IMG/VR virus record: IMGVR_UViG_3300025030_001165 | Coordinates: 1 to 30,483 of that record | From: a virus | Reading direction: 5' to 3' (one strand) | DNA length: 30,483 bases | Part shown: positions 7,813 through 26,836 of the stretch, piece by piece | Layout: the number at the start of each line of letters is the position of its first letter | Numbering within the stretch: the first letter of the stretch is position 1 | Notes under the pieces: generated by a model | The model's database searches: none | Told to the model about the DNA's origin: nothing | Seen by the model: only the letters and a program-made list of their open reading frames with translations | Made by a program: the position numbers and the translations under genes

Positions 7813-7833
7813 TATCCCCATAACTAGTTGATA

Positions 7834-9134: not shown

Positions 9135-9311
9135 TTATAAGTAAAGAATCTCTACATCTTTTGAATTCATAACTTCGTCAATTCTTTTATATATTTCATC
9201 AGGGATATCTTGATCAACAATAAACGAAAACAAGCCAACAATAGCATCAACCTGACCAGAATAAACTTGGTCGTTTTTAATTGTTAGTTTTTTGGCTGGC
9301 AGGTTATGCAT
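9135..9311 (-). CDS. 58-aa frame in the first cassette, unknown
   Basis: A minus-strand frame from an ATG inside the attC at 9309-9311 to TAA at 9135-9137 encodes about 58 residues with a normal protein-like composition (KKLTIKNDQVYSGQVDAIVG, ending KDVEILYL). There is no clear ribosome site, and the frame closes upstream with TAG, so it may be the remnant of a longer gene cut by recombination. It is the only coding candidate in the first cassette. Three later cassettes also have a short minus-strand gene beside their attC. Confidence 0.35.
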   Translation of the reverse strand: MHNLPAKKLTIKNDQVYSGQVDAIVGLFSFIVDQDIPDEIYKRIDEVMNSKDVEILYL

Positions 9312-9321
9312 GGCGTTGTGC
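9233..9321 (+). other. attC recombination site 1
   Basis: Outer boxes AGCCAAC (9233-9239) and GTTGTGC (9315-9321). The inner left arm GCATCAACCTGACC pairs imperfectly with GGCAGGTTATGC on the right, and the TGGC just before GTT pairs with the left side. Imperfect pairing with extra bases on one arm is normal for attC. The left arm resembles that of the site at 15060-15146. Confidence 0.65.
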
Positions 9322-9380
9322 CTCTAACCAATATGATCCATGGATCGCAATAACCAATAAAAACGGGAGCATAATAAAAA

Positions 9381-9905
9381 ATGCTTGATGTGAAAGTAGA
9401 GATAAAATCTTGGCTGTTAAAAGGAATATTATTGGGAATAGGAGCGTTGCTTGTGCTGCTATTAAAAGAGATACTATATTGCATTTACGCCCTCTCCCCC
9501 ATAATCCCCATAGATACGTTAAATAGAGTTCCACAAACAACACTGCTGTACATATCATCACTATCTCTTCTTTTGAATCTAGTAACCATTGCATACTTGT
9601 TTTCCCTTTTATTTTTTAATGAAAATGTTAAAGATTTTGAACCAATATCCCGGTATGGTTTGAAATTTGATTACGCATATCGCCCACTATGCCCAGTGTG
9701 TGATTCGCCACTTCAAGTAGAAGCATTGGAAATGGACAAACAATTAAAAACAAAACCAAAATTATCATGTCCAAAAGATATCAAACATTACGATAGGATA
9801 CCTACTGATCTTATAGGTGAAGAAAAGCACATTGCGTCAATCGTTAGCGAGCTATTCCAAAAACCACAAACAACCATCGACAAAATATTTTCAGTAAAAC
9901 AATAA
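9381..9905 (+). CDS. membrane protein with C-terminal zinc-ribbon-like domain
   Basis: This 174-aa protein has two predicted membrane helices (about residues 12-40 and 52-80, LLGIGALLVLLLKEILYCIY and YISSLSLLLNLVTIAYLFSL). A soluble part follows with CPVC at about residues 105-108 and SCPKDIKHYD at about 130, a zinc-ribbon-like Cys/His set. It is the first gene of its cassette and lies 11 nt before the Mrr-type nuclease gene, so the two are probably co-expressed. The layout resembles the cassette protein at 15971-16471 (two helices, then CxxC pairs). No family recognised. A GGGAG lies 11 nt before the ATG, slightly far. Confidence 0.6.
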   Translation: MLDVKVEIKSWLLKGILLGIGALLVLLLKEILYCIYALSPIIPIDTLNRVPQTTLLYISSLSLLLNLVTIAYLFSLLFFNENVKDFEPISRYGLKFDYAYRPLCPVCDSPLQVEALEMDKQLKTKPKLSCPKDIKHYDRIPTDLIGEEKHIASIVSELFQKPQTTIDKIFSVKQ

Positions 9906-9916
9906 ATGAGGAAACT

Positions 9917-10867
9917 ATGGACGTATTAATGTTAATCGTTATTATAGCTGTCCTTATTTTCATTGTTTCAAAACTATATTCAAGTAATGGTCAATGGCCA
10001 TTATTTTCGAGCAAAAACCAAACACAAGAGGTCTTAGAAATATTTAAAAGAGTTTTCTCTGGTAAAGTTGATGAGGTAAAATTGTCAACTTGCATATCAT
10101 CCATAGATTTAAGTGGTCAATTCCCTTGGTACATTAACCTGTTGTCAATGTTTGAAGTTGGGATGGCAAATGTGACAGTAAATGCACATTATAACCAACT
10201 CAAGAAAGACTACGAAATAGGTATAACAATCGATGGATATGGTATCGCAGATGAATCAGGGTGGAATAGGACTCTCCAAAAAGTCGTTGATAACATCGCA
10301 ATTCCTACGTTCATACAAGCTGTTAAAGATGCCGCGAGCGAATTAACAGAAGTGAGTAAATACGAAAAAGATAAGTTCTTAACAGAAACCATATATTCGG
10401 AAAATGTGACAAACTTATTGCAGTCCAATTTGAAAGACAGGATTGATTACCTTTTTCGCGAAAAATATGAAAATGAACCCAAAAAAGAATTTATAGAAAT
10501 ATTGAACAGAAATTTCTCAAATGGCATTGAGTATGAACACGCAATAGCAAAAGCAATAAATCTTTATTCAGATGGCTGGAATGCCGAAGCAACAAAAGCG
10601 AGCGGAGACCAAGGGTTAGATATTCTTGCTCGTCATCCATCTGGTATTACTGTCGCAATACAAGCGAAACTATATTCAAGCCCTGTTGGGAATAAAGCTG
10701 TTCAAGAAGTCATCTCCGCAATGGGTTTTTATAAAACAAATTTTGCGGCAGTTGTAACAAACAACAAATACACGGAATCAGCGAAACAATTAGCTGCGTC
10801 TCACTCTATCGAGTTACTACACCATAATTCAATACTGGACTATATTGATGGCGTATTAAGAAAATAA
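9917..10867 (+). CDS. membrane-anchored Mrr-type restriction endonuclease
   Basis: This 316-aa protein starts with one membrane helix (about residues 4-20, MLIVIIAVLIFIVSKLY). A middle region of unknown type is followed by an Mrr_cat domain at about residues 205-300: GIEYEHAIAKAI, GWNAEATKASGDQGLDILA, IAIQAK-like VAIQAKLYSS, then PVGNKAVQEVISA and AAVVTNNKYTESAKQLA. The D and the QxK of the catalytic core (GDQGLDIL...IQAK) are present; Q in place of E is usual in this family. Mrr-like enzymes cut modified or foreign DNA, and the anchor suggests action at the membrane, perhaps on entering DNA. It follows a membrane/zinc-ribbon gene by 11 nt and precedes a 91-aa gene by 16 nt. Confidence 0.8.
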   Translation: MDVLMLIVIIAVLIFIVSKLYSSNGQWPLFSSKNQTQEVLEIFKRVFSGKVDEVKLSTCISSIDLSGQFPWYINLLSMFEVGMANVTVNAHYNQLKKDYEIGITIDGYGIADESGWNRTLQKVVDNIAIPTFIQAVKDAASELTEVSKYEKDKFLTETIYSENVTNLLQSNLKDRIDYLFREKYENEPKKEFIEILNRNFSNGIEYEHAIAKAINLYSDGWNAEATKASGDQGLDILARHPSGITVAIQAKLYSSPVGNKAVQEVISAMGFYKTNFAAVVTNNKYTESAKQLAASHSIELLHHNSILDYIDGVLRK

Positions 10868-10883
10868 ATAAAAGGAGACGAAC

Positions 10884-11159
10884 ATGAAAAAATCAATCAA
10901 GTTCAATGGAACAATTATAAATACTCCAGAATATCAATGTGCAATTGTAAAAATACCAAAAAGTGTAATTAGAAATCAAAAAGAAGCTGAAGACTCTTAC
11001 GAAACATTCAAACCTCTTTTCAAATTCCTTCCTCTGGTATTTATGTCTACTGACCAAGGGATACCACACGCATTATACGGTGAGGAGGAAGCTGTCAGAT
11101 TTGTTTCACAATACCCACATAAGCTAATCGTATGGGGTGAATTTGAAAAGGACATTTGA
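10884..11159 (+). CDS. 91-aa cassette protein, unknown
   Basis: MKKSIKFNGTIINTPEYQCAI continues into a soluble protein with no membrane helix and no motif I can name. It has a good AGGAG ribosome site 7 nt before the ATG and follows the Mrr-type gene by 16 nt, so it is probably translated from the same mRNA. Its last 36 nt overlap the convergent 54-aa gene. It could be a partner or immunity factor of the nuclease; that is only a guess from position. Confidence 0.6.
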   Translation: MKKSIKFNGTIINTPEYQCAIVKIPKSVIRNQKEAEDSYETFKPLFKFLPLVFMSTDQGIPHALYGEEEAVRFVSQYPHKLIVWGEFEKDI

Positions 11160-11288
11160 CAAGTCTGCCGCTTTAAGAAGTTCAAGAGTCTCATGAAATT
11201 CTTGTTTTGAAACAGGTGGGCATGAATCTATTTCACTTGGATCTACTTCTTTAACTCCATAGGTCAATTTAATATCTTCAGTATTCAT
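11124..11288 (-). CDS. 54-aa reverse-strand cassette protein, unknown
   Basis: The start was placed at the ATG at 11288 because a strong AGGAGG lies 6 nt upstream of it. A longer frame to 11327 would begin inside the attC. The product (MNTEDIKLTYGVKEVDPSEI, ending VLFKFTPYD) is small, acidic and soluble. It is convergent with, and overlaps by 36 nt, the 91-aa gene. It starts about 25 nt from the attC left box, as do the reverse genes at 15031 and 17407. Confidence 0.55.
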   Translation of the reverse strand: MNTEDIKLTYGVKEVDPSEIDSCPPVSKQEFHETLELLKAADLSNVLFKFTPYD

Positions 11289-11312
11289 AAAATCCTCCTT
11301 TAACCAAGAGTA

Positions 11313-11404
11313 GCCCAACAAACGCATTCACCAGATGGCGATGAAGCATTGTTGCGCTACGCGGTTTAGTTTATTTGCGCCACTGGTGATGCTTGGCGTT
11401 ATGC
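11313..11404 (+). other. attC recombination site 2
   Basis: Outer boxes GCCCAAC (11313-11319) and GTTATGC (11398-11404). Inner arms ACGCATTCACCAGATGGCG and GCGCCACTGGTGATGCTTGGC are complementary with bulges. The centre (about 11341-11377) is variable. It closes the Mrr-nuclease cassette and borders the MunI-type cassette. Confidence 0.8.
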
Positions 11405-11499
11405 TACCAACCCCATACCTTTAATACCCCTCCCCATCTTTTCTAAAACACCCGCACGAAGATAGAAAGTCCCGCAAACTGTTTATCGCTACAAAATGC

Positions 11500-11537
11500 T
11501 AACTCTAGTATGTAGACCTGCATGAATACTAAAGTTA
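11500..11537. promoter_or_regulatory. C-box-like operator upstream of the controller gene
   Basis: TAACTCTAGTAT (11500-11511) and ATACTAAAGTTA (11526-11537) form an inverted repeat with 11 of 12 positions complementary and a 14-nt spacer, ending 12 nt before the controller ATG. A third copy of the element is at 13123-13134 before the methyltransferase gene. Type II controller proteins bind such repeats to regulate their own gene, the endonuclease gene and sometimes the methyltransferase gene. Confidence 0.65.
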
Positions 11538-11549
11538 TCTATAACCGCA

Positions 11550-11789
11550 ATGACTAACCAATCTTTAAAAAATCAAGCACTAATCCAGTTCGGTGAGAAA
11601 GTTAAAACTACTCGAAAAGAGAAAGGGCTTTCTCAAGAAGAACTGGCATCTATGGCTAACCTGCACCGAACTTATATCGGCATGATCGAACGCGCCGAAA
11701 AAAATATCACGCTTGCAAATATGTTAAAAATCTCTAAAGCACTAAATGTTCCTCTTTGCGAGTTGCTGGAGTCAGTAGACAATGGCTAG
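11550..11789 (+). CDS. controller (C) protein of the MunI-type R-M system, HTH_3/XRE
   Basis: This 79-aa protein is almost entirely one XRE-type helix-turn-helix domain: FGEKVKTTRKEKGLSQEELA at about 12-31, HRTYIGMIERAEKNITLANM at about 39-58, then LKISKALNVPLCELL. Size and position (overlapping the endonuclease gene by 8 nt) are typical of C proteins that delay endonuclease production when the system enters a new cell. There is no obvious ribosome site, as in several leaderless C genes. The inverted repeat just upstream is its probable binding site. Confidence 0.85.
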   Translation: MTNQSLKNQALIQFGEKVKTTRKEKGLSQEELASMANLHRTYIGMIERAEKNITLANMLKISKALNVPLCELLESVDNG

Positions 11790-12381
11790 CAACGACAATA
11801 GACTCAGAAAGAAATGGCAAGATTACAGTGGCAGAAACGCCGGTATAGCCGAACATGATTTTTACGAAGCATTTAAAACTGTATTCAGCGGAACAGAATA
11901 TCGGATTAGATCAAAGCCAAAAGAGTTCGCAAATATCTATGTAAAAGTAGAACTTTCTGAACAAGAAAAATCTGTAATACATAATCCAAGTACAGCGATC
12001 ACCCGTCATGGAGTTTTTCCAGACTACGCGATAGACAACACAATAACCGGCAAGACAATATATGTAGAAGTTAAACGACAAGACGGCTGGGTGGAAGGGG
12101 GCAAACGCTCAGACGGTCGTGGAAATGCACACGAGAGGTCTTGTAAATTCTTCACTCCTGGCCTCCTCAATATCCTTAGAGAAAAAAGCAAAATTGACAA
12201 AAATAGTTTGCCCTTTTGGACTGTCTTTCAAGGTGACATAACCCGCGACCCTTGCAGAGTTAGGGAAATTTCTTGCTGGTACGATAACTACAAAGCGCAT
12301 TTCTTCTTTTGGCGGGACTCTGCTGATCCATCTGCGATAATCGGCCATTTTGAAGAACATATTGCCCCATTGCTAGCATAA
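11782..12381 (+). CDS. type II restriction endonuclease, MunI family (expected target CAATTG)
   Basis: This 199-aa protein matches what I know of MunI over its whole length. The catalytic PD-ExK core is PDYAID (D81) followed by VEVKRQDGW (E96, K98). The recognition motif GRGNAHERSCK at about 112-122 is the GNAxERSCK element of MunI, which is shared in shorter form (GNAxER) with EcoRI. FFTPGLL, TVFQGDITRDP and VREISCWYD also agree with MunI. Family members cut C^AATTG. The ATG overlaps the controller stop by 8 nt, giving coupled expression. The convergent methyltransferase gene ends 5 nt beyond its stop. Confidence 0.93.
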   Translation: MASNDNRLRKKWQDYSGRNAGIAEHDFYEAFKTVFSGTEYRIRSKPKEFANIYVKVELSEQEKSVIHNPSTAITRHGVFPDYAIDNTITGKTIYVEVKRQDGWVEGGKRSDGRGNAHERSCKFFTPGLLNILREKSKIDKNSLPFWTVFQGDITRDPCRVREISCWYDNYKAHFFFWRDSADPSAIIGHFEEHIAPLLA

Positions 12382-12386
12382 TCAAC

Positions 12387-13073
12387 TCAGTCTTCGTATT
12401 CTTCCCGTACATCAAGCCCCCATACATCCCAACCAATAGGGCGGTGACGGGCAAAAAGCTCTATTCTGTCTTGAGTAGGGAACATTTCTTCTATTCCTCT
12501 CATCACCTCTATCGGCTTCTCACTATGTTTGCTTCGTGGGACACGAACAAGCTGCTTTATATTTCTGGCCCCTCTTGGCGTTGGTATCCTTCCTCTTTTA
12601 AAAACTAAGCACAATTCGCAATATGACATTGTGTATTTGCCTGGGTTATGAACCATTTTATCCCAAACGAATGCAACAGTCCTGTACTCAAAGCCCCACG
12701 CTTGCCCGAGTTCTATCCCATGAACAAGATGAGGGTTAGTAACCCACATAAAAAGTAAACAGTCATCTTTGGCAATTTCGGTAATTGGAATTTTCTTTAA
12801 GTCTTTTGTTTTTATTGTCGGGTATTTGAAATTTGCGGAGCTAATAAAAATACTTTTCGACAAATCAATTTTTTCTACCGACTTGCTACTCTTGTCAAAC
12901 TGTAGCTTTCCGCCGTAATCCCAAGGTGGATCGGCGTAAATTATGTCATATTTTTTTTCTGGGAGATCGGGGTATAAGTCTGGTAAATCATTTCGTTTAG
13001 TCCGTCTCTCCTGTGCGGCGTTATAAATTGTGTACCCGGTTATCTTTCTCTCTTCTGTGTTGTCATTGCTCAT
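12387..13073 (-). CDS. adenine-N6 DNA methyltransferase, MT-A70 family (MunI-type)
   Basis: This 228-aa protein has the MT-A70-type layout: YDIIYADPPWDYGG with the catalytic DPPW at about 48-51, LFMWVTNPHLVHGIELGQAWGFEY in the middle, and RVPRSKHSEKPIEVMRGIEEMFP with DRIELFARHRPIGWDVWG at the end, where the SAM-binding part lies. M.MunI is a known bacterial member of this family, and the neighbouring MunI-like endonuclease makes protection of CAATTG by adenine methylation the clear expectation. The gene is convergent with the endonuclease gene. A GGAG lies upstream of the ATG, and a C-box-like element sits about 50 nt before it. Confidence 0.9.
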   Translation of the reverse strand: MSNDNTEERKITGYTIYNAAQERRTKRNDLPDLYPDLPEKKYDIIYADPPWDYGGKLQFDKSSKSVEKIDLSKSIFISSANFKYPTIKTKDLKKIPITEIAKDDCLLFMWVTNPHLVHGIELGQAWGFEYRTVAFVWDKMVHNPGKYTMSYCELCLVFKRGRIPTPRGARNIKQLVRVPRSKHSEKPIEVMRGIEEMFPTQDRIELFARHRPIGWDVWGLDVREEYED

Positions 13074-13122
13074 GTGGGCTTACTCTCCAAAATAGGTACG
13101 GTTTTATTTTTAACTAAATTGA

Positions 13123-13134
13123 TAACTATAGTAT
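13123..13134. promoter_or_regulatory. C-box-like element upstream of the MunI-type methyltransferase
   Basis: TAACTATAGTAT differs from the left half-site of the controller operator (TAACTCTAGTAT) at one position, and its centre ACTATAGT is palindromic. It lies 50-61 nt before the methyltransferase ATG (minus strand), within the likely promoter. This suggests that the controller protein also acts on the methyltransferase gene. Confidence 0.5.
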
Positions 13135-13233
13135 GCCCTATGTAGCATTTCTTATTTCTCAGGGCAATAAGTTTGGTGCCGAAATGCAACAAACCTTGCC
13201 CCAAAATAAAGAGAACAAGATCAAAACAAAAAA

Positions 13234-13323
13234 GCATAACAAGCGCATCAACGCAGACGGCGGGGACGCGCTATTTTTTTACCCAAGTTCAGTGTCCGCC
13301 GCTGGTTATGCTTGGCGTTGGCG
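13234..13323 (+). other. attC recombination site 3 (end of the MunI-type cassette)
   Basis: Outer boxes GCATAAC (13234-13240) and GTTGGCG (13317-13323). The inner arms GCGCATCAACGCAGACGGCGG and CCGCCGCTGGTTATGCTTGGC pair with small bulges; a T7 run lies in the centre. Up to the crossover base it differs at only one position from the attC at 26255-26344 in the oppositely oriented array 2. The 353-nt gap 13074-13426 holds this site and the methyltransferase promoter; I see no gene in it. Confidence 0.9.
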
Positions 13324-13426
13324 TAGCACCAATCTACGAATCTCAAATGGCGCCCAAAACAATATTGGACTAGCAATCAGAAACACGATACTTGTCAATG
13401 GGTCAAAACCAGTAAGGAAACATAAT

Positions 13427-13600
13427 ATGTCCATAAATGCAGAAACAATCTCTCTAATCATCGGAGTAGCCTCATTTTTAGCAGCTATTATATTTTTCTT
13501 CGCTGCAAAAGAATCTGAAATGAATACAACTAAATTATTAGAAAAAATTAATGAGAAAACTGACAGGGTTAATAAGGCCAATTGTTATTTTCAACACTAA
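13427..13600 (+). CDS. 57-aa membrane protein with coiled coil
   Basis: The product is MSINAETISLIIGVASFLAA followed by the rest of one helix (about residues 7-27) and a coiled-coil-like stretch (NTTKLLEKINEKTDRVN). The ATG at 13427 has AAGGAAA upstream; the same frame extends back through the attC to 13133 but that part is not protein-like. It overlaps the next plus frame by 50 nt, and the two may be halves of one gene separated by a frameshift. Confidence 0.5.
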   Translation: MSINAETISLIIGVASFLAAIIFFFAAKESEMNTTKLLEKINEKTDRVNKANCYFQH

Positions 13601-13868
13601 AGAAATAATATTGGCTGACCAAGGAGCTATGGACTACATAAAATCATTAAGAGTTAAGTTAGATGAAGACAACCACACTCCTAAGCAAATAATTATTAAC
13701 TTCAATAAGCATATTCAACTTGAACCAATTTTAGAATCTGCCGATATGTTCAAATTTGAAATTGAAGCAAAGAAAGGTAAGGGCAAGCAATGGATATTTA
13801 ACCTTTCGCCTGTAATGACTTCAATAGATATTGATTCATACCGTTTTAGATTGGAAATATTAATTTAA
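13551..13868 (+). CDS. 105-aa cassette protein, perhaps second half of a split gene
   Basis: The frame encodes a soluble domain (IVIFNTKEIILADQGAMDYI, KQIIINFNKHIQLEPILESA, SYRFRLEILI) with no recognised motif. Its start lies 50 nt inside the preceding frame and has no good ribosome site. The layout of helix, coiled coil and soluble domain would make sense as a single membrane-anchored protein of about 140-150 aa if the two frames were joined. A real indel, a sequencing error or programmed slippage cannot be told apart here. Confidence 0.45.
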   Translation: MRKLTGLIRPIVIFNTKEIILADQGAMDYIKSLRVKLDEDNHTPKQIIINFNKHIQLEPILESADMFKFEIEAKKGKGKQWIFNLSPVMTSIDIDSYRFRLEILI

Positions 13869-13886
13869 AAATAGAGAACATCTATC

Positions 13887-14258
13887 ATGGCTATGACGTT
13901 AGAAAAACTAAATCAACATAAAACCGAGATTGAACTTGATCTATATAAAATGGGAAAGGCATATAATGACGCCAACACAAATCATATCCTCCATCTCTTA
14001 TTATCTTTAGCGACAATGGGTTTGTGGCTCATTGTTTGGCTCTTTACTGCCGAAAGCAATGCAAGGCGCAGAGCAAAATTAGAAAAATTAATTGACGAAT
14101 CTAAAAAAGCTATAATTGAGATTGACAGCAAATTAATACCTGAAGCAAGAAACCGTGAATCTGGGCGCAACAAAAAAGACACTAAAGAATGTCCTTGGTG
14201 CGCTGAAATAATTTTATCAAAAGCTAAAATATGTAAGCATTGCGGTAGAGAAGTTTAA
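13887..14258 (+). CDS. membrane protein with coiled coil and C-terminal zinc ribbon
   Basis: This 123-aa protein has a helical N-terminus, one membrane helix at about residues 30-50 (HILHLLLSLATMGLWLIVWL), a charged coiled-coil region (RRRAKLEKLIDESKKAIIEI) and a classical zinc ribbon at the end (CPWCAEIILSKAKICKHCGR, about 102-121). The ribbon has the common CPxCAE...CxxCG form. It lies 18 nt after the 105-aa gene. Function unknown; the ribbon may bind protein or nucleic acid at the membrane. Confidence 0.65.
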   Translation: MAMTLEKLNQHKTEIELDLYKMGKAYNDANTNHILHLLLSLATMGLWLIVWLFTAESNARRRAKLEKLIDESKKAIIEIDSKLIPEARNRESGRNKKDTKECPWCAEIILSKAKICKHCGREV

Positions 14259-14306
14259 ATATTAATTAGAATCGCTCTTCACCGAGTAAAAATTAAAGGG
14301 GCCGCA

Positions 14307-14855
14307 ATGAATCACAACGAAATGCTAATTGCTTTAAACTCAGTCCACCAAAATTACATTCTTTCCATTGCATCAGTACCTATGTTCAAAAATGAAAGCA
14401 GCAACAAAATTCTTGAAAATTTTTATATATCAATTGGTAATAGAAATTTTGATTGCACAAGAATATTATTAGACTTGAGCAATGATGTGACTCATGAAAT
14501 CATAATAAATGAATTTGTAAAGTCGATTCATAGAACTTTAATTTGTGAAAGTTTTGAATTGGTCAAACAATATGCAAGCGACACAGACCAATACGAAAAT
14601 GGAATAAATATAAAAGAAAACGATGTATTTATGTACACTTCGTTAATTAGAAACGCATTCTCTCATAATTTTAAAATTGAGCCAATTGGGTATATAAAAA
14701 CAAAACTAAAAAATGGTTATGTTATAAAATGGCGTAAAAAAGACATCACAAAGGACAATATTGGAAATGTCTTATCTGGTGCTGATCTACAGTACAGCGA
14801 GATATTTCAATTATTTTTAGACATCTACGAATTGGCAGATAAAAAGTTAATATAA
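14307..14855 (+). CDS. 182-aa protein with HEPN-like motif
   Basis: This helical, soluble protein contains MYTSLIRNAFSHNFKIEPIG at about residues 110-129. R-N-A-F-S-H fits the Rx4-6H motif of HEPN domains, which are often RNases in defence and toxin-antitoxin systems; the surrounding 'LIRNAFSHN' is close to the form seen in several HEPN families. The rest (RTLICESFELVKQYASDTDQ, SGADLQYSEIFQLFLDIYEL) fits an all-helical fold. A GGGG-rich ribosome site precedes the ATG. The HEPN call is based on one motif and predicted helicity only. Confidence 0.5.
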   Translation: MNHNEMLIALNSVHQNYILSIASVPMFKNESSNKILENFYISIGNRNFDCTRILLDLSNDVTHEIIINEFVKSIHRTLICESFELVKQYASDTDQYENGINIKENDVFMYTSLIRNAFSHNFKIEPIGYIKTKLKNGYVIKWRKKDITKDNIGNVLSGADLQYSEIFQLFLDIYELADKKLI

Positions 14856-15031
14856 TGTGGTGATTTCTCACCGCATATAGGGCAAAAATTGACCTTTAAG
14901 TTTTTATATTTTTCATAACTTGTCATTTCAAATTCGCCATTACTGACGAAAACTTCAATCATTTCTGATTCTTGAATACCAAGGACTTTCTCTTTGTCAC
15001 AAATATGATAAAGATTTTCTTCTTTACTCAT
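14825..15031 (-). CDS. 68-aa reverse-strand cassette protein with CxxC motif
   Basis: MSKEENLYHICDKEKVLGIQ continues to NFCPICGEKSPHYINFL, with a single CPxCG knuckle. An AAAGGAG lies 8 nt before the ATG, which supports real translation. The gene is convergent with the HEPN-like gene, overlapping by 31 nt, and starts 28 nt from the attC left box. Size and position match the reverse genes at 11288 and 17407. Whether it partners the HEPN-like gene (for example as antitoxin) is unknown. Confidence 0.55.
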   Translation of the reverse strand: MSKEENLYHICDKEKVLGIQESEMIEVFVSNGEFEMTSYEKYKNLKVNFCPICGEKSPHYINFLSANS

Positions 15032-15059
15032 AAATTAATCTCCTTTAAATTAAGGGAAA

Positions 15060-15146
15060 AGCCAACAAGACGGTCAACCTGACACCGGGGAGCAGCGTTC
15101 TTCGAGCCTATTTCAGTGGCCGGTGCAAGTGAGCTTGGCGTTGGCT
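15060..15146 (+). other. attC recombination site 4
   Basis: Outer boxes AGCCAAC (15060-15066) and GTTGGCT (15140-15146) are perfectly complementary. Inner arms ACGGTCAACCTGACACCGG and CCGGTGCAAGTGAGCTTGGC pair with bulges; the centre is variable and contains GCAGCGTTCTTCGAGCC. Confidence 0.85.
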
Positions 15147-15248
15147 CCTAAAGTAACGAGACTGTTCTCTCAACTTAACTATCAAACAAACTGAAAATAC
15201 CGGCACTACAACCCAGCAAATAAATAGAATAAATATCATGGTGTAATT

Positions 15249-15770
15249 ATGACCCCCGAGTTAGCATCTAAATTATATGACTATTCATGTTACGGAATAA
15301 TAATTGGGCTTGCTATTGGTTTTATCTCAACAGGAATATCCATATATTCAAGCAACATAATCAATGATGATCTAAAATTAAAACTATCGATGTCTCATGA
15401 AAGAACAGAACAACTGAAAAAAGAATTATCTTGGCGTCGATTATCAGAAGAACAATATAAAACTTTAGTCGATAAACTAAGACCTTACCCATCAACCATC
15501 TTAATTACGAATCCACCAGAAATAGAAGCAACAACATTCGCAAACGACTTCGTTAAAGCCTTCGCTGACGCTGGGTGGAAAGTAGAACATTCACCATATT
15601 TTTGGTATGCAGCACTAGAATATGGCATATCAGTTTCAAGAACTGAAAATGGAGAATCAGAAAGATTAACTAATCTGCTGTCTTCTATTAAGATTGAACA
15701 TAAATTAGACGCAATAAAAGACAAATTCACATTATTTATTGGTAGTAAAGAACCACCAAATATAAATTAA
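15249..15770 (+). CDS. 173-aa membrane-anchored cassette protein, unknown
   Basis: The sole gene of its cassette. One membrane helix lies at about residues 14-34 (YGIIIGLAIGFISTGISIYS), then a charged coiled-coil region (LSMSHERTEQLKKELSWRRL), then a mixed alpha/beta domain (YPSTILITNPPEIEATTFAN, AFADAGWKVEHSPYFWYA, LEYGISVSR). I know the general pattern (helix, 'WRRLS..Q', 'EA..FA..F..A...AGW.V') as one seen in uncharacterised membrane-anchored proteins, but cannot name a function. Its stop codon lies inside a 26-nt sequence shared with the next attC. Confidence 0.65.
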   Translation: MTPELASKLYDYSCYGIIIGLAIGFISTGISIYSSNIINDDLKLKLSMSHERTEQLKKELSWRRLSEEQYKTLVDKLRPYPSTILITNPPEIEATTFANDFVKAFADAGWKVEHSPYFWYAALEYGISVSRTENGESERLTNLLSSIKIEHKLDAIKDKFTLFIGSKEPPNIN

Positions 15771-15778
15771 ACACCATT

Positions 15779-15866
15779 AGCCAACAAAACGCTCCACTTG
15801 ACGCCGGGAAGCTGTTCACTTTTCCCTGTTAATTCAGGGGCGGCGCAAGTGAGCTTGGCGTTGAGC
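15779..15866 (+). other. attC recombination site 5
   Basis: Outer boxes AGCCAAC (15779-15785) and GTTGAGC (15860-15866). Inner arms CGCTCCACTTGACGCCGG and GGCGGCGCAAGTGAGCTTGGC are complementary with bulges. The 26 nt at 15763-15788 are identical to 17421-17446 at the next site. Confidence 0.8.
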
Positions 15867-15970
15867 ACTGAATTCTGACCACATCCAAGGAAGATAAGAA
15901 ATTCCCTTAATAACCTGATACGAAGTGATCACGACACCAATACAAAAAAACCAAAATGGGAGAATTTCTA

Positions 15971-16471
15971 ATGCCACCGGAACAAATTCTAAAATTCGTA
16001 TGGCAACGATGGGTAAAATCATCAGGACGAAGAAAAATATGGTGGTTCCTCCTAGCCATCCTTGTATCTTTGTCCATTGCCGTTTGGAGATTTTACCCAA
16101 ATCGAATAGATGCATTGACACCACAAGAACAACTATTTCTAGGAATACTATCGATATTAGGATGGTTGATAATTGGTCTAACATTTTCGTGCGCCTCTTT
16201 CATGTGGGAGTTGAACAACAAACCGATCAAATTTAAAAAATTACTATGGGACAAATACGGCAATTTAATATGTGAAAAATGCAATACTCAACTAATGGCA
16301 CAAGATATTGCGGGCGTTCCGGTTCTCGTAAGTCTATCTGATAAAAAATACACACCTGAATTATTTTGCAAATACTGCGATATTGCATTTCCAATAACGG
16401 ATGATAATGGAAAGAAAATACATCCGAGTGTTGTAATTTTGTCATTCAAAGAGAAATATTTGAAAGCATAA
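15971..16471 (+). CDS. two-helix membrane protein with zinc-ribbon-like C-terminus
   Basis: The start was moved to the ATG at 15971 because GGGAG lies 8 nt before it; the frame can be extended to 15956. The 166-aa product has two membrane helices (WWFLLAILVSLSIAVW and LGILSILGWLIIGLTFSCA, about residues 22-80), then two CxxC knuckles (CEKC and CKYC) about 45 residues apart in a soluble domain. The arrangement matches the cassette protein at 9381-9905. No enzymatic motif is seen. A minus-strand frame over the helices (16184-15834) is also hydrophobic but was judged a shadow. Confidence 0.6.
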   Translation: MPPEQILKFVWQRWVKSSGRRKIWWFLLAILVSLSIAVWRFYPNRIDALTPQEQLFLGILSILGWLIIGLTFSCASFMWELNNKPIKFKKLLWDKYGNLICEKCNTQLMAQDIAGVPVLVSLSDKKYTPELFCKYCDIAFPITDDNGKKIHPSVVILSFKEKYLKA

Positions 16472-16526
16472 TAGGCCGTCAATTTTGAAACAATTATCTA
16501 ATTTTTAATCAAGGAGAACCAATAAC

Positions 16527-17048
16527 ATGGCTGCAATGACCATTAAAGTGCATGCTGGCGATTGGGGCGAGACAACTGCGGCGTTTGGACCTGGTTGGAC
16601 AGGTAGGTATAGCATTGCGTTCGCCAATGGGTTCTTCAGTATCTCTCATGAATACTTCGTTGATACGGATATTTCCTCAGTCGAAATTGTGACTGAGGAG
16701 AACAGTAAACGAGTACTCGGCACCGCTGGTTGGGGTATTGCAGGAGCCACTCTTCTGGGTCCAATAGGCTTGTTAGCAGGGTTACTCCTCGGTGGTAAGG
16801 GTAAGAAAATAACATTTGTCTGCCAGTTCAAGGATGGAAAGAAGATTCTTGCTACGACTGACAATAAGACCTTCAATCTTTTCCAGATGCCCGTATTGAA
16901 AAGGCAATTCAATACAGAAACAGTTGCACCAAACCAACCGACAAAATCAGAACATCCTGTTTTATTATGCCAAATGTGTGGAAAATCCAATACTCCTGAT
17001 GATACAAACTGCATGGCTTGTAGCGCACCCATCATAGAAAATGAATAA
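16527..17048 (+). CDS. protein with glycine-rich hydrophobic segment and C-terminal zinc ribbon
   Basis: This 173-aa protein has an N-terminal beta-rich part (about 1-65), a glycine-zipper-like hydrophobic stretch (GTAGWGIAGATLLGPIGLLA, about 70-90), a second beta region (KKITFVCQFKDGKKILATTD) that resembles a small PH-like/SHOCT-associated fold, and a zinc ribbon at the end (CQMCGKSN...CMACSAPI). AAGGAG precedes the ATG. It is the fourth cassette product here that combines a hydrophobic segment with a CxxC ribbon. Function unknown. Confidence 0.6.
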   Translation: MAAMTIKVHAGDWGETTAAFGPGWTGRYSIAFANGFFSISHEYFVDTDISSVEIVTEENSKRVLGTAGWGIAGATLLGPIGLLAGLLLGGKGKKITFVCQFKDGKKILATTDNKTFNLFQMPVLKRQFNTETVAPNQPTKSEHPVLLCQMCGKSNTPDDTNCMACSAPIIENE

Positions 17049-17067
17049 TCTATAAAGGGGGAATAAA

Positions 17068-17283
17068 ATGTCCTACTCAGAAACAAAAACGACAATCATC
17101 AAAGAACTTGAAAAACTTTCTTCCCTTGCTGCCAGTGAAAGCAAGAAACTAAAAGGCGAAGATAAGAAAACTATTATTCAAATCGGCATTATTCTGAAAG
17201 TTCTTTCAAAGGGGATTTTAGAAGGCAATTTTGACAGATTACTTTCAGGAGAGAAACTTGGCCAGATAGGGTCTCGTCATTAA
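17068..17283 (+). CDS. 71-aa helical protein, unknown
   Basis: MSYSETKTTIIKELEKLSSL is followed by lysine-rich helical sequence ending in EKLGQIGSRH. An AAAGGGGG ribosome site lies upstream, and it follows the previous gene by 19 nt. Its last 95 nt overlap the convergent 72-aa gene, so one of the two C-termini may be fortuitous. Confidence 0.45.
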   Translation: MSYSETKTTIIKELEKLSSLAASESKKLKGEDKKTIIQIGIILKVLSKGILEGNFDRLLSGEKLGQIGSRH

Positions 17284-17407
17284 ATAAACATAAATAATTT
17301 GCCAATTCATTCAACGCTACAGTTTTCATTATTGGTAAGCCTGTATCTGTTTGCCCAAATGCTACTCCTGCAATATCAGAAAGTTCTTTTTCTGTATATT
17401 CAGACAA
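17189..17407 (-). CDS. 72-aa reverse-strand cassette protein, unknown
   Basis: It starts with TTG at 17407 preceded by GGAGG at 7 nt, a strong site. The product begins MSEYTEKELSDIAGVAFGQT and contains ALNELANYLCLFNDE, a soluble helical pattern. It is convergent with the 71-aa gene and starts 29 nt from the attC left box, as the reverse genes of two other cassettes do. Confidence 0.45.
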   Translation of the reverse strand: MSEYTEKELSDIAGVAFGQTDTGLPIMKTVALNELANYLCLFNDETLSGQVSLLKVICQNCLLKSPLKELSE

Positions 17408-17436
17408 ATTTAACCTCCATTAAATTAAACACCATT

Positions 17437-17529
17437 AGCCAACAAACGGTTCAACGCAGATGGCGGGATCTCCTGTTGAGTTTTAAAATTTACTTCAGTG
17501 GCCGCCGCTGGTTACCCTTGGCGTTGGGC
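17437..17529 (+). other. attC recombination site 6 (right end of array 1)
   Basis: Outer boxes AGCCAAC (17437-17443) and GTTGGGC (17523-17529). Inner arms CGGTTCAACGCAGATGGCGG and CCGCCGCTGGTTACCCTTGGC are complementary with bulges. Phage DNA resumes within about 10 nt: the repeated minus-strand promoter begins at 17577. Confidence 0.9.
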
Positions 17530-22354: not shown

Positions 22355-22989
22355 TTTCCCTCCCTGATTAAATTTTCTCCCGCTTGCCAAATTGCCGATA
22401 CTTTCCCATCCACTTCTATTTGACCAATATGCTTATTGGTGCAACTTGTATCAACGTAGATTTTGTATCCTGCTTGTTTCAATTTGTTGCAAAAATAAAC
22501 GTCCTCTCCGATAGAATATTTAATTTCAGGGACTGGATTTGGCATAAAATTAAAATATGGAGCCTCTATATTCTCAAAAACCCCCATATTTATTAATAAG
22601 CATGCTGCCCCTACAGAATCAACTTCTATTAATTCTCCATCTACCCATTTTGTTACAGTATCATACTTATTTATAATTCCCCTAAATAAACATGGCTCAA
22701 ACGGTTCTTGGCGCATATAAGAAAGTCCAGAAACGATAGGCGAATTATGCGATAATAATTTAGTAATTGTATCTGGATGATGACGATGATCTACATCAAG
22801 AAAAAGGATATGGGAACACTTGTATTTCTTCGCTCCCTCTACTAATTGATTTCTAATATGCGCTAACCCTTGATATCCACCAGCATGAAAAAAAATATGC
22901 TCTATCGGCTTTTTCATACTTATGTATGATTCAAAAAATTCAACTGGTATATTATTATATGTCAATGGAACGGCAATCGCAATTTTCAT
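22351..22989 (-). CDS. GT-A-like glycosyltransferase (paralogue family, copy 2, intact)
   Basis: This 212-aa protein shares with the copies at 29738-29118 and 24140-23754 the motifs ILFLDVDHRHHPDTITKLLSH (DxD region), VSGLSYMRQEPFEP, VDSVGAACLLI, GEDVYFCNKLKQAGYKIYVD and TSCTNKHIG. It is complete, so it shows what the truncated neighbour has lost. Its ATG is immediately adjacent to the stop of the GIY-YIG gene. Confidence 0.75.
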   Translation of the reverse strand: MKIAIAVPLTYNNIPVEFFESYISMKKPIEHIFFHAGGYQGLAHIRNQLVEGAKKYKCSHILFLDVDHRHHPDTITKLLSHNSPIVSGLSYMRQEPFEPCLFRGIINKYDTVTKWVDGELIEVDSVGAACLLINMGVFENIEAPYFNFMPNPVPEIKYSIGEDVYFCNKLKQAGYKIYVDTSCTNKHIGQIEVDGKVSAIWQAGENLIREGK

Positions 22990-23790
22990 CTAAATATACC
23001 AAAATTTCAATCCGTTCGCCTTCTCCGTTCTTCCTCTACAAACATTAGTAATATTCATCCTATTTATTCCAGTATGTTTAGATGCCTCATAAAAACTTAA
23101 ATATATACATCCATTAGAACACTGTATTTTTCTTCCATTCATTTTTGTTCTTCCATTTTTTATTTTTGCGTCTTCTGATATTTTTCTTCCTGTTTGACAA
23201 ATGGACAAATTTTTTCTCCATTGATCATTTATTTCTCTACCTTTATGTATTTCTGATATTCTCTTTTTCGTCTCTTCTGTATGGTGTTTTCCATACATTG
23301 GGTTATTTTCACCACTAAGCAATTCAGACATAATAAGATTTTCTTCCTTAGACCTAACTCTTCCACTGTTAGCTCTCCCTATCATCTGTTTTGTCTCTTC
23401 AGTATGTTTTCTACCATAAAACGGGTTATCCTCTCCATCAAATCTGCCTTTGCTCGCTGCCGATTGCTTCCCTCTAGTCTCCTCACTAACGAAAGTACCT
23501 TGGCCTCCACCAGAAGTAAGATTATACCCATTAGGAACTATAGTATTTAATTCTTGAATCCAAACACATTCTCTTTCATTTAATAGATCTCTTTCACATT
23601 CTTCTAATATAGAGTAATAAAAATTATCTATTCCATATTTGACTATAGCATTTTTAATATATCCAGAGCCTGTTAATTTTTTGTGCTGGTTAAATCTTTT
23701 CTCGATATCAATACTTTGCCCAACATAGCACTTACCATTAATTTTATTTCTTATTAAATAGATACCACAAACTTTACCATTGCTTTCCAT
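22990..23790 (-). CDS. GIY-YIG homing endonuclease with NUMOD3 repeats and NUMOD1-like end
   Basis: This 266-aa protein begins with the GIY-YIG nuclease domain: CGIYLIRNKINGKCYVGQSI (GIY at 9-11, YVG at 22-24), the arginine in EKRFNQHKK and the metal-binding Glu region ERECVWIQ, ending PNGYNLTSGG (about 1-95). Two NUMOD3 DNA-binding repeats follow (GEDNPFYGRKHTEETK and GENNPMYGKHHTEETKKRI), then a NUMOD1-like helix-turn-helix at the end (IYLSFYEASKHTGINRMNIT). This is a typical free-standing phage homing endonuclease. Its start lies 37 nt inside the truncated glycosyltransferase frame. GAAGG precedes the ATG. Confidence 0.92.
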   Translation of the reverse strand: MESNGKVCGIYLIRNKINGKCYVGQSIDIEKRFNQHKKLTGSGYIKNAIVKYGIDNFYYSILEECERDLLNERECVWIQELNTIVPNGYNLTSGGGQGTFVSEETRGKQSAASKGRFDGEDNPFYGRKHTEETKQMIGRANSGRVRSKEENLIMSELLSGENNPMYGKHHTEETKKRISEIHKGREINDQWRKNLSICQTGRKISEDAKIKNGRTKMNGRKIQCSNGCIYLSFYEASKHTGINRMNITNVCRGRTEKANGLKFWYI

Positions 23791-24140
23791 AAAAGACCTT
23801 CGAGTAATATTGCCGAGAATAAAGAATTAACATAAATACATGCCTCGTAAGGTTCTTGCCTCATATAAGATAATCCAGACACTAGAAGGTTGTGAGATAA
23901 TAACTTTGTGATTGTTTCGGGATGGTGGCGATGATCTATATCAAGGAATAAGATATGAGTGCAATTAAGATTTTTTGCACCGTCAATTAGGTTATTTCTG
24001 ATAACATCTAATCCTTGATATCCGCCTGCATGGATGAATACATGATGGCATGGCTTTACCATACTTAGATATGATTCAAAGAATTGAATCGGAACAGATG
24101 TATAGGTGATGGGATTCACTATTGCTATTTTAGTATCCAT
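23754..24140 (-). pseudogene. truncated glycosyltransferase (paralogue family, copy 3)
   Basis: The first about 100 residues match the intact copies (IQFFESYLSMVKPCHHVFIH, GGYQGLDVIRNNLIDGAK, ILFLDIDHRHHPETITKLLS, VSGLSYMRQEPYEACIY). Then the frame changes to unrelated sequence and stops after 128 codons, at the point where the GIY-YIG gene begins. The C-terminal half, with GEDVYFC and HIG motifs, is missing downstream. Insertion of the homing endonuclease with loss of the 3' half, or recombination between neighbouring copies, would explain it. Confidence 0.75.
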
Positions 24141-24147
24141 TCTTTAC

Positions 24148-24202
24148 TTATCGGACACTAAATATAAAACTTTAATGATTTATTTTATAAAATTGATATT
24201 TA
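24148..24202. repeat. phage leader shared with the left edge of array 1
   Basis: TTATCGG (24148-24154) and ATAAAACTTTAAT (24164-24176) followed by AT-rich sequence, as at 9012-9068. It lies between the truncated glycosyltransferase start and the first attC of array 2 and marks the phage-side boundary. Confidence 0.6.
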
Positions 24203-24211
24203 TAAAACCCC

Positions 24212-24302
24212 GCATAACGACCAGCATAACCAGCGGCGGCCTGTTAACTTGGGAAAAAAAATCAGAGCATACCCGCCGTCTGCGTTGATGCGCTTGTTAT
24301 GC
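24212..24302 (-). other. attC recombination site of the EcoRI-type cassette
   Basis: Read on the minus strand: outer boxes GCATAAC (24302-24296) and GTTATGC (24218-24212), inner arms GCGCATCAACGCAGACGGCGG and CCGCCGCTGGTTATGCTGGTC. It closes the EcoRI-type cassette and contains the last codons of the methyltransferase gene. Orientation is opposite to the six sites of array 1. Confidence 0.9.
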
Positions 24303-25269
24303 TTTTGTTCTTGATTATGATTCTAAAATACGGGCATTTACCATTTATGGATAAATCTTTTTCATTATTCCCTTTTCTGAATTTAATTATTTCAAATTGG
24401 TCGGGGTTAAATTTATGTAGAAATGTTATTGGTACACCCATATATCCCTTATAGTCTAAAGGTATGTCTTGTGTTTTATTGACATTGATTCCATCAAAGT
24501 TGTCATATGTTGGATATTCATTTTCGTTTCCAGAATATTTTTTTGTAAGGTCTATATCTTGGTGTCGTTTTGATGTGTCTAAGTTTGTTAACCACAAACA
24601 ATTATTTGGAGAAATTATTCTATTTCCATAATTATCAATACGAGCCTCTGTTCCATAAAGTTCATAGTGTTCTGGAACAATGAAACCGGAAACACCTCTG
24701 CCAAGATTTATTCCTAACCACGCTTTATTTTCTTTAATTAGTTTAAAAATTTCCTTATAGGTTATTGCATTAACATTCCCAATTATTAAAAACTTTTTAT
24801 TGTATTTAACTAATTGTGCTACATATTCTCTGAATAATGAAAATGGTGGGTTAGTAACAACAATATCGGACTGCTTTAATAATTCAATACTTTCTGAACT
24901 ACGAAAATCACCATCTCCATTAAAGTAAATAATGTCAGTTGAACTTGGTTTATTTTTTTCACCCTCTGTACCTGTATATTCAAAGAAAAAACCATTTTCA
25001 TCTTCTTTCGTATTAAATAAATCCCTTACTTGTTCTCGATAACAAGAAGCTATTAATTTTTTAAGACCTAATTTTTTGAAGTTTGAGGCAAAATAATTAA
25101 AAAAATTACTAATACGAGGGTCATCGCAATTGCAATAAACTACTTTATCTTTAAAATGACTTTTGTAATGTTGCAATTCACTTTCTATATCTGAAAGTTG
25201 CGTATAAAATTCGTCACTTTTTGATTTTTTTGCATTTTGCAATAATTCATTTGTTGCGTTTCTTGCCAT
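24262..25269 (-). CDS. ecoRIM: adenine-N6 DNA methyltransferase, EcoRI type (expected target GAATTC)
   Basis: This 335-aa protein is closely similar to M.EcoRI (326 aa) throughout: MARNATNELL at the start, KSKSDEFYTQ, VVYCNCDDPRISNFFNYF, GDGDFRSSESIELLKQSDIV, the catalytic NPPF at 140-143, WLGINLGRGVSGFIVPEHYE and INVNKTQDIPLDYKGYMGVP. It methylates adenine in GAATTC and protects the cell from the neighbouring endonuclease. The end is odd: after FRIIIKNK the usual short tail is replaced by SITSASTQTAGML, encoded inside the attC. It follows the endonuclease gene by 39 nt, the order known from the EcoRI system. Confidence 0.95.
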   Translation of the reverse strand: MARNATNELLQNAKKSKSDEFYTQLSDIESELQHYKSHFKDKVVYCNCDDPRISNFFNYFASNFKKLGLKKLIASCYREQVRDLFNTKEDENGFFFEYTGTEGEKNKPSSTDIIYFNGDGDFRSSESIELLKQSDIVVTNPPFSLFREYVAQLVKYNKKFLIIGNVNAITYKEIFKLIKENKAWLGINLGRGVSGFIVPEHYELYGTEARIDNYGNRIISPNNCLWLTNLDTSKRHQDIDLTKKYSGNENEYPTYDNFDGINVNKTQDIPLDYKGYMGVPITFLHKFNPDQFEIIKFRKGNNEKDLSINGKCPYFRIIIKNKSITSASTQTAGML

Positions 25270-25308
25270 TTCAAACCCTTAATGATTTTAATAAAAATAT
25301 TATTTTAG

Positions 25309-26145
25309 TTATTTATTTTTGGTTATCTGATTAAATATTTCACTGCCTAATATTTGAAGCGAGGTTTTAGAAATTTCAAGCATAATATTAAACATATTAT
25401 TGATGTGCCATTTTCCACCATCCCCTTGTGTGTATATAGAAGTTGCTTGAAGCATTATTGTTTTATCTTTATGTTTGACAAACTTATTTTTACACAAATT
25501 GGTATTGATTGGCATTCCATAATTTGCAGAAGTTAATCTATCTAATCTATTCAACATTCCTGAATTGTATACCAACGTTACAATCCTTCCGTCTGGTCTT
25601 TTGATTGTAATAGTTTCAGTTAAAAAATTTGAGCCTTCAAGGAATAAGACATAAGGAAAATGAGATTCAGATAACATCAAATTTGCGATTTCGGATATGT
25701 TTTTATGCGACCTTTCTATTGCATTACCAGCAGCCATTAAATCTTGATTCTTATCCTTACCTACAAGTTCCCCATTTTTTATATTTTCAATGTCTTTCCC
25801 TTGATGTTTTGCTTCCGATACTAAAACGATTCTCCAATTACCATTATCGTCTTTTACTTCTATTATTCCACCATCAGGTATAATACTTGAATTTGATACA
25901 AAAAGGGTTTGTCCTAATTCTGGGTCAATTTTTTTTAATGCTTCGTTTATTTCTTCTTTTTTTATACTTGTTTTGTAGTGAAAAGATAATTGAGGAAAAT
26001 CCATTTTAAGCCGCTCAAGAACATATTGTGAAATTTCTCCAACTGTTACGTCGTGTGATTTTGCTCCATCCCCAAATATACCAATTACACCCATAGACTC
26101 TTTGTGTTGATTCGTTAACCTTTCTGATTGGTTCTTTTTAGCCAT
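25309..26145 (-). CDS. ecoRIR: type II restriction endonuclease EcoRI homologue (expected target GAATTC)
   Basis: The ATG at 26145 gives 278 aa beginning MAKKNQSERLTNQHK, matching EcoRI (277 aa); the frame can be extended to 26199 but that part has no EcoRI counterpart, and GGAG lies before 26145. Catalytic residues are in place: PDGG (D91) and SEAKHQGKD (E111, K113). The recognition segment MAAGNAIERSHKN is identical to EcoRI at 137-149, and NYGMPINTNLCKNKFV and LQATSIYTQGDG also agree. It cuts G^AATTC. Downstream lies its methyltransferase. The 110 nt upstream to the attC should hold its own promoter. Confidence 0.96.
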   Translation of the reverse strand: MAKKNQSERLTNQHKESMGVIGIFGDGAKSHDVTVGEISQYVLERLKMDFPQLSFHYKTSIKKEEINEALKKIDPELGQTLFVSNSSIIPDGGIIEVKDDNGNWRIVLVSEAKHQGKDIENIKNGELVGKDKNQDLMAAGNAIERSHKNISEIANLMLSESHFPYVLFLEGSNFLTETITIKRPDGRIVTLVYNSGMLNRLDRLTSANYGMPINTNLCKNKFVKHKDKTIMLQATSIYTQGDGGKWHINNMFNIMLEISKTSLQILGSEIFNQITKNK

Positions 26146-26254
26146 TAGGTCTGTTACTCCCCGTTGATGGTGACGCATAATATTCAGTTTGCTTGTCACG
26201 GGCGACTATACCTTAAAGAGGGTGCCGGATGCAAATGTTTGAATTTTTGTGGAC

Positions 26255-26344
26255 GCATAACGCCAAGCATAACCAGCGGCGGACACTGAACTTGGGTAAA
26301 AAAATAGCGCGTCCCCGCCGTCTGCGTTGATGCGCTTGTTGTGC
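26255..26344 (-). other. attC recombination site at the outer end of array 2
   Basis: Read on the minus strand: outer boxes GCACAAC (26344-26338) and GTTATGC (26261-26255), with the same inner arms and T7 centre as the MunI cassette site at 13234-13323. Before the crossover the two differ at one position only. Phage promoter copy B lies about 30 nt further right. Confidence 0.92.
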
Positions 26345-26366
26345 TTTTGTTCTTGATTCGTTTCTT

Positions 26367-26405
26367 CGTTATCTTATAATATAATCACTAATTTGAACTT
26401 GTCAA
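26367..26405 (-). promoter_or_regulatory. repeated sigma-70-like promoter, copy B
   Basis: On the minus strand TTGACA (26405-26400), an 18-nt spacer and TATTAT (26381-26376). It follows the tail terminator gene by about 9 nt and reads into the EcoRI-type cassette and on to the glycan genes. Boxes, spacing and the GTGATTA before the -10 box are as in copy A at 17577-17548. Confidence 0.7.
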
Positions 26406-26413
26406 GTATGATT

Positions 26414-26836
26414 CTAAATTTTCTTCATCTGGATATTATAAACAACAGAACTCACAAACCCTTGGATTTCTTCTATCCAAACAGGAGGATATTTTGCTGT
26501 TCTTTCTAATTTAAATACATTATATCCAGATACAGTCAGAGAAGCGAAGTCAAATCTATCAACCAGTGCATCGGCAATTGTATTTACTTCACCTACTGAT
26601 GTGCTTTTAGAATAAACATTAAATTGAAATTGAACATTGAAAATTACCTGTTTGTTATCAGAAGGAGCTGTAAAATAATAATCGGGAACATCACTAACAA
26701 AAAAGAAAATAACAAATGGGTAAGTAGGTGTTTGGGGAGCACGAACTTGATATACTCTCCCCCCAATAGCCGTTTTGAATGCGCTTGCTACTTGGGAATA
26801 GCTATAAATACCTGTTGCTAAAGCTGTAGAACTCAT
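26414..26836 (-). CDS. tail terminator / tail completion protein
   Basis: This 140-aa protein shows the usual pattern for tail terminators and DUF3168-type proteins: ALATGIYSYSQVASAFKTAI, GGRVYQVRAPQTPTYPFVIF, IFNVQFQFNVYSKS, ADALVDRFDFASL and VYNIQMKKI at the end. It lies after the gp10-like gene, the normal place, and its start overlaps that gene's stop by 4 nt (ATGA). In related phages the tail tube gene comes next; here 18 kb of accessory DNA does. Confidence 0.75.
   Translation of the reverse strand: MSSTALATGIYSYSQVASAFKTAIGGRVYQVRAPQTPTYPFVIFFFVSDVPDYYFTAPSDNKQVIFNVQFQFNVYSKSTSVGEVNTIADALVDRFDFASLTVSGYNVFKLERTAKYPPVWIEEIQGFVSSVVYNIQMKKI

Follow-up and report, generated by a model that had tools for sequence, protein, structure and literature searches.

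The window analyzed here, the whole stretch of 30,483 nucleotides of IMG/VR virus record IMGVR_UViG_3300025030_001165, carries an EcoRI-type restriction-modification (R-M) system, with an endonuclease (R) and a methyltransferase (M), as an integron gene cassette in a tailed phage from an environmental metagenome. Integron cassettes are exchangeable gene modules, of the kind that disseminates antibiotic resistance between bacteria. The most probable explanation, in which we have good confidence, is that a complete and probably active system was inserted into the phage genome by the integrase of a host integron acting in trans. An earlier note made from the letters of the window had proposed an EcoRI-type cassette carried by a phage, and the analysis supports that proposal. 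The locus consists of the following elements.

24192..26412, whole insert as defined by the empty site in L085, a sister phage, 2221 bp: promoter-like element, attC, cassette, attC and ~20 bp
24218..26260, minus strand, EcoRI-type gene cassette, 2043 bp, from G/TTATGC of the upstream attC (the slash marks the cut) to the cleavage point of its own attC
24212..24302, minus strand, the cassette's own attC, at its 3′ end (attC model 88.5 bits, E = 5.6e-22)
26255..26344, minus strand, upstream attC, left by another cassette (attC model 94 bits, E = 1.8e-23; cores read)
25309..26145, minus strand, EcoRI-type endonuclease R, 278 amino acids from ATG 26145 (Pfam EcoRI 2e-147, PDB 1ckq 1.4e-133)
24262..25269, minus strand, EcoRI-type adenine methyltransferase M, 335 amino acids (Pfam EcoRI_methylase 2.1e-133, PADLOC MTase_II 2.1e-153)
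26365..26406, minus strand, promoter-like element pointing at the cassette (TTGACA, 16 or 18 nt, TATATT/TATTAT)

The family scores bear out the close resemblance of both genes to EcoRI R and M that had been noticed before. The nearest solved structure to R is EcoRI itself (1ckq, E = 1.4e-133), and 204 of 275 aligned residues are identical (74%). The open frame of R, 25309-26199 on the minus strand, opens at GTG 26199; translation likely starts at the homologous position, ATG 26145, giving a product of 278 amino acids. The catalytic residues of EcoRI, D91, E111 and K113, and its base-contact residues at 137, 138, 140-142, 144, 145, 200 and 203 are all identical in R (12 of the 12 checked). R is followed by M on the same strand, 39 nt apart, and the M stop codon falls within the downstream attC. 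This is the R-then-M order that the earlier note had called usual and that the plasmid EcoRI system has. As far as can be read from the sequence, R is intact and the Type II R-M system of the EcoRI family is complete. It is probably active, and the identity of the contact residues to those of EcoRI makes GAATTC its predicted target.

Inspection by eye of the two attC sites flanking the genes identified in each an R″ core, two paired arms, three unpaired bases in the left arm, a loop and an R′ core. On the minus strand, the left arm with its unpaired C, G and A (GCAT-C-AAC-G-CAG-A-CGGCGG) faces CCGCCG-CTG-GTT-ATGC. The unpaired bases on one arm set the orientation of the site, and R and M are transcribed towards the cassette's own attC. 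Two minus-oriented attC sites had been claimed for this locus, and the scores were strongly positive at both ends. The span first given, 24212-26344, holds as the distance from attC to attC, but the cassette proper, with its limits set by cutting at G/TTRRRY, is 24218-26260. The cassette has the core GTTATGC at its start, to which the R″ core GCATAAC of its own attC is perfectly complementary, as expected for a cassette that circularizes. The R″ core of the upstream attC, GCACAAC, would instead pair with GTTGTGC and mismatches the present R′ core, GTTATGC. The mismatch upstream together with the exact match of the cassette's own attC is the signature of cassette entry into a site that a different cassette had left. 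By its foldable attC sites, their orientation and its boundaries, the EcoRI system is an integron gene cassette.

The attC sites were scored with a covariance model (R1) of 90 positions, built from the eight sites in the window and one from a relative. Run over the whole window without filters, this model returned exactly eight attC sites (E<=5.2e-16), and the next match had E = 0.58. Since the model was trained on the window's own sites, independent support comes from covariation, from attC sites near an intact integron integrase gene (intI) and from the empty site. Covariation was assessed in 37 attC sites from phages and bacteria on many contigs, where 95.2% of the cells pair, compared with 69.8% in shuffles, and 159 cells are changed on both sides, compared with 44.5 in shuffles. 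When the partner was slid by 1 to 3 columns, pairing fell to 28-41%. Being fitted to the structure, this alignment is biased towards it, but the effect far exceeds the slid controls. In a nine-site MAFFT alignment that was not fitted to the structure, 85.3% of the cells were paired versus 78.4% in shuffles and 30-50% in slides; the effect is smaller, yet it exceeds every shuffle and slide. Single-strand folding energies alone do not make the attC sites stand out (z -0.1 to -1.7), whereas covariation separates them. An Rfam scan gave no match at the EcoRI attC sites.

The other six attC sites lie on the plus strand, in a second array that was absent from the account in the earlier note.

9233..17529, plus strand, second cassette array, six attC sites and five cassettes (attC model E 3.4e-22 to 5.2e-16)
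9233-9321, 11313-11404, 13234-13323, 15060-15146, 15779-15866 and 17437-17529, plus strand, the six array attC sites (attC model)
9917..10867, plus strand, Mrr-type nuclease in the first cassette of the array (Pfam Mrr_cat 5.7e-20)
11550..13073, mixed strands, MunI-type R-M cassette (Pfam RestrictionMunI 2.4e-82, MT-A70 1.8e-20)
11550-11789, plus strand, control protein of the MunI-type cassette (PADLOC 4.6e-23)
11782-12381, plus strand, MunI-like endonuclease (Pfam RestrictionMunI 2.4e-82)
12387-13073, minus strand, methyltransferase of the MunI-type cassette (Pfam MT-A70 1.8e-20)
17537-17578, minus strand, second copy of the promoter-like element, at the array site, with the same exact pattern

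The MunI-type cassette (11404-13323) is a second R-M cassette, with convergent R and M and CAATTG as its predicted target. MunI, a structural relative of EcoRI, recognizes CAATTG. The Mrr-type nuclease has a weak likeness to the Mrr-like end of ZorD. The array also holds several small proteins without a family match, and no plasmid match for the array was found. A minus-strand frame of 58 codons (9136-9309) crosses the resident attC at 9233-9321.

Comparison with a sister phage, L085, which shares ~84% DNA identity with the window across shared genes, showed that both loci differ by insertion. Positions 26413 and 24191 of the window map onto the adjacent L085 bases 12038 and 12039, and the whole EcoRI insert is missing. 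At the array locus L085 has a single attC and no cassettes. This lone attC corresponds in position and sequence to the first attC of the window array, and the flank that follows its R′ core is the one that follows the last attC of the window array. Therefore, the five cassettes of the window sit exactly where L085 has none. The distant relatives L088 and L089 (adaptor protein 63%) have neither the EcoRI insert nor an attC. These comparisons also bear on the possibility that the insert is an assembly artifact in which a bacterial integron contig was fused to a phage contig. Metagenome contigs can be chimeric, but phage structural genes flank the insert, its position coincides precisely with the empty site, and another record, L002, shares both junctions and has an insert 100% identical over 2221 bp, although the independence of its assembly is uncertain. 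A chimera is thus highly improbable. The only difference between L002 and the window over 7.8 kb is a gap of 24 bases; L002 is hence the same phage and was rejected as an independent strain.

Genes for tape measure, minor tail, major tail, tail terminator, neck and head-tail adaptor proteins are found on both sides of the cassette regions (PHROGs, Pfam). The tail terminator gene adjoins the insert.

26414..26836, minus strand, tail terminator gene (PHROGs tail terminator 5.1e-6, Pfam Tail_completion_gp17 7.8e-7)

Capsid genes are present in the record of L085. Judged by these genes, the carrier is a tailed phage; no isolated phage relative of the structural protein was found. The integron integrase model TIGR02249 had no match in the window or in 12 viral records (the relatives and two further records, L003 and L004). 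The tyrosine recombinase family (PF00589) likewise had no match in 10 of these records, including a 113-kb relative, whereas it was detected in all of the 14 control genomes. As the window (30 kb) and most of the relatives are fragments, the absence of an integrase is evidence rather than proof. The arrangement has neither the intI beside the array that defines a complete integron nor, in records that are possibly fragments, the integrase of a temperate phage; it is a cassette cluster without integrase. As no integrase was found in the phage or its relatives, a host IntI acting in trans is the likely agent. No tyrosine integrase was found in any relative, so that a lysogenic life is not indicated, which makes addiction of the host, suggested in the earlier note, less likely than was implied there.

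EcoRI cassettes were also found in other genomes. In genome contigs, 88 EcoRI loci were detected by a scan, and 80 of them were kept. In an unrelated phage record, L003, R and M lie between attC sites at 9853 and 11957 within an array of five attC; its assignment to a phage is read from genes for a phage-type recombination nuclease and a sigma factor. A Cycloclasticus locus (L048) consists of R, M, an attC and two further cassettes, and a Desulfamplus locus (L006), found by the attC model, has an attC behind M and an R′ core ahead of R. A longer non-cassette island in related genomes had been named as an alternative; the EcoRI system is absent from the related phages and not part of a longer island in them, and elsewhere, in L003, L048 and L006, it recurs between attC sites. 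In Microcystis (L009, L014, L017 and L022), the EcoRI loci share a leader that starts at an R′ core (TTATACATACATTA) and have attC-like halves; these copies are likely eroded or fossil cassettes. A coarse hairpin scan of the flanks of EcoRI loci gave matches in L003, L048 and L049 but missed L006, and its further matches in L009, L014, L017, L022 and L034 are suggestive only. At most of the remaining loci no attC was seen. Taken together, the cassettes in the unrelated phage, Cycloclasticus and Desulfamplus and the suggested Microcystis remnants point to integrons as one way in which the EcoRI family moved between phyla.

Three other records were noted in this survey. In L049 (470-3278), an EcoRI R-M system and an attC are followed by an aadA-like gene whose attC is of the classical aadA type, on a contig binned as Bacteroidetes, a doubtful binning. 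In the 258-kb viral record L004 (9965-11608), M is intact, the endonuclease frame is without the first third of EcoRI, and a transposase-like frame comes after. A viral record of 60 kb (L098 / G018, IMGVR_UViG_3300027740_000026) carries attC sites in both orientations, at least seven in all.

A possible source of the cassettes was sought by searching bacterial genomes with the same attC model. Matches at E<=1e-8 were found in 9 of 147 genomes of Desulfobacteria, the class of a Desulfamplus genome, the best reaching 85.3 bits as compared with 94 for the window; in 229 Gammaproteobacteria the best match was 59.2 bits. The integron integrase intI was matched in all six Desulfobacteria genomes tested, five of them over the curated cut-off, and in two of the six an attC of the window type lies ~1 to 2 kb from intI. 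The window attC sites are consequently of a kind used by real integrons. Our best guess from these likenesses is that the donor or the host belongs to the Desulfobacteria or their neighbors.

In the mechanism that we favor, the integron integrase of the host cell, acting in trans, would have inserted the cassette at an attC carried by the phage. During infection, the module would be transcribed from the upstream promoter-like element. M would then mark the phage's own GAATTC sites (seven in the window), R could cleave DNA without these marks, from the host as well as from rival phages, and the packaged methylated DNA would resist EcoRI-type enzymes in the next host. We infer the trans action of the host IntI, the expression in infection and the benefit to the phage from the arrangement described above. 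The exact pattern of the promoter-like element has two occurrences in the window, with 0 expected, and adjoins the array in both the window phage and L085. The element is the best promoter-like match of the stretch, with 11 of 12 consensus positions; the total of matches is as in the shuffled control. We take 26365-26406 to be a putative promoter. The promoter-like element and an attC were presumably copied to the EcoRI locus first, and the cassette would have come afterwards.

Several points weigh against this mechanism. The insert at the EcoRI locus (24192-26412, 2.2 kb) is larger than the cassette, and L085 has no attC there; hence at least part of it came by some other recombination. The same facts would fit the arrival of a promoter-attC-R-M-attC block from another phage or a plasmid by homologous or illegitimate recombination, with no integrase action on the phage genome. 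The promoter-like element common to the array site of both phages agrees with this origin too, as it points to copying from that site or from a relative. On the other hand, the upstream R″ core mismatches the present R′ while the cassette's own attC fits exactly, which speaks for entry of the cassette into an existing attC, and the five array cassettes lie between an attC shared with L085 and an identical flank. Transfer as a block is possible, though not what we would expect. Other reservations concern insertion by a host integrase and use by the phage. The steps of expression, methylation and cleavage are predicted from the genes. GAATTC shows no clear depletion in the window (7 sites versus 11.8 expected), and palindromes of like composition have counts just as low, for which reason avoidance of the site was dropped as a sign of use. 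The link to Desulfobacteria has attC likeness as its sole basis, and no prophage relative was found in the 147 Desulfobacteria genomes, a blank that is uninformative for a phage without integrase. Finally, the window is a 30-kb fragment, and genes beyond its ends are unseen.

Neutral cargo and counter-defense through M are the main rivals of use by the phage as a weapon, and they may act together. In the first, the cassette would be a recently captured, short-lived passenger without benefit to the phage, and its chief effect would be that EcoRI moved between bacterial integrons. Integrons capture genes regardless of function. The array includes cassettes without a recognized function, and with five cassettes versus none between close relatives its turnover is fast. 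We nevertheless consider a mere passenger unlikely. EcoRI, MunI and Mrr make up three nuclease genes or systems, which is above the expectation for random capture, EcoRI recurs in the array of a second, unrelated phage (L003), and a useless endonuclease should vanish fast, yet R is intact. In the second, M alone would matter, its GAmATTC marks would protect the phage in hosts with EcoRI-type enzymes, and R would be a hitchhiker. EcoRI systems are common in environmental bacteria (the 88 loci mentioned above), the viral record L004 combines an intact M with an endonuclease without its N-terminal third, and solitary methyltransferases far outnumber full R-M systems in phages (PMC4176335). However, the complete length and intact active site of R are not required by pure counter-defense, and we regard protection by M alone as conceivable but somewhat doubtful.

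A more general idea can be put forward tentatively. Some phages may keep a resident attC in their late region as a docking site, at which host integron integrases load or swap cassettes for defense or attack, EcoRI and MunI R-M systems among them, out of the pool of bacterial cassettes. If this is true, a phage lineage would renew its restriction and methylation specificities as integrons renew resistance genes.

Clusters of attC sites without integron-integrase (CALINs) have been described in virulent phages (Qi et al., 2023, PMC9892861). In that study, five of six phage attC sites recombined with IntI1, and five cassette-borne DNA methyltransferases are listed. The window resembles those phages in having attC-flanked cassettes in a tailed phage without IntI, and recombination of its attC sites by IntI is predicted. 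It differs in that complete EcoRI and MunI R-M systems are present here, while the section consulted of that study has methyltransferases and no complete EcoRI or MunI system. It also differs in its two insertion loci of opposite orientation and in having a sister with an empty site and a lone array attC. R-M systems occur in integrons (PMC4176335), and the PacI R-M system was described in super-integrons of pseudomonads (Vaisvila et al., 2001, as cited in PMC12707154). The system described here is of the EcoRI family and phage-borne, in contrast to PacI, which is on a bacterial chromosome. The PacI genes reportedly form a complete Type II R-M system within a gene cassette, and in this the two cases are alike. 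The R protein of the enterobacterial plasmid EcoRI systems is 74-76% identical to the phage R, with the same active-site and contact residues, and most enterobacterial copies are located on small plasmids (4-9 kb). The phage record of Helicobacter phage Pt11509_1 (PQ159904.1), like the window, contains an EcoRI R-M locus, but there R and M lie among genes for a queF-like protein, a ribosomal silencing factor and an IPP transferase, outside the phage integrase. Because both genes are split or truncated there and their surroundings are apparently host flank, this record was rejected as a prior case of EcoRI in a phage.

Complete R-M systems were reported to be nearly absent from phages, with 9 in 831 genomes (Oliveira et al., 2014, PMC4176335). 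The phage of the window has two, both as integron cassettes, and the sites in a close relative are empty or nearly so. No report of EcoRI as a gene cassette was found in the literature searched, a scope outside which most subscription journals lay. What is new is that two R-M systems, EcoRI and MunI, occur as complete cassettes in a phage for which an empty site allows comparison; the enzyme family, the cassette type and the kind of carrier are known. The finding links three mobile layers, phage, integron cassette and R-M system, and offers a concrete route for the spread of the best-known restriction enzyme. It also makes it testable whether a host integron can load a phage with cassettes during infection.

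Some other features of the window were recorded. A sub-threshold match to the int-alpA RNA family is located at 7757-7822 on the minus strand (30.3 bits, gathering 35.8, E = 0.013). Between a glycosyltransferase-like gene (22351-22989) and its 128-amino acid relative (23754-24140) lies a GIY-YIG/NUMOD3 homing endonuclease (22990-23790). L085 has one gene (12063-12719) at the place of 22351-24140, and the arrangement resembles a homing insertion accompanied by partial duplication. Three paralogous stretches of the glycosyltransferase-like family phrog_1574 were found at 22744-22812, 23889-23957 and 29493-29561, and this family is spread over the late region, occurring also at 8254-8967.
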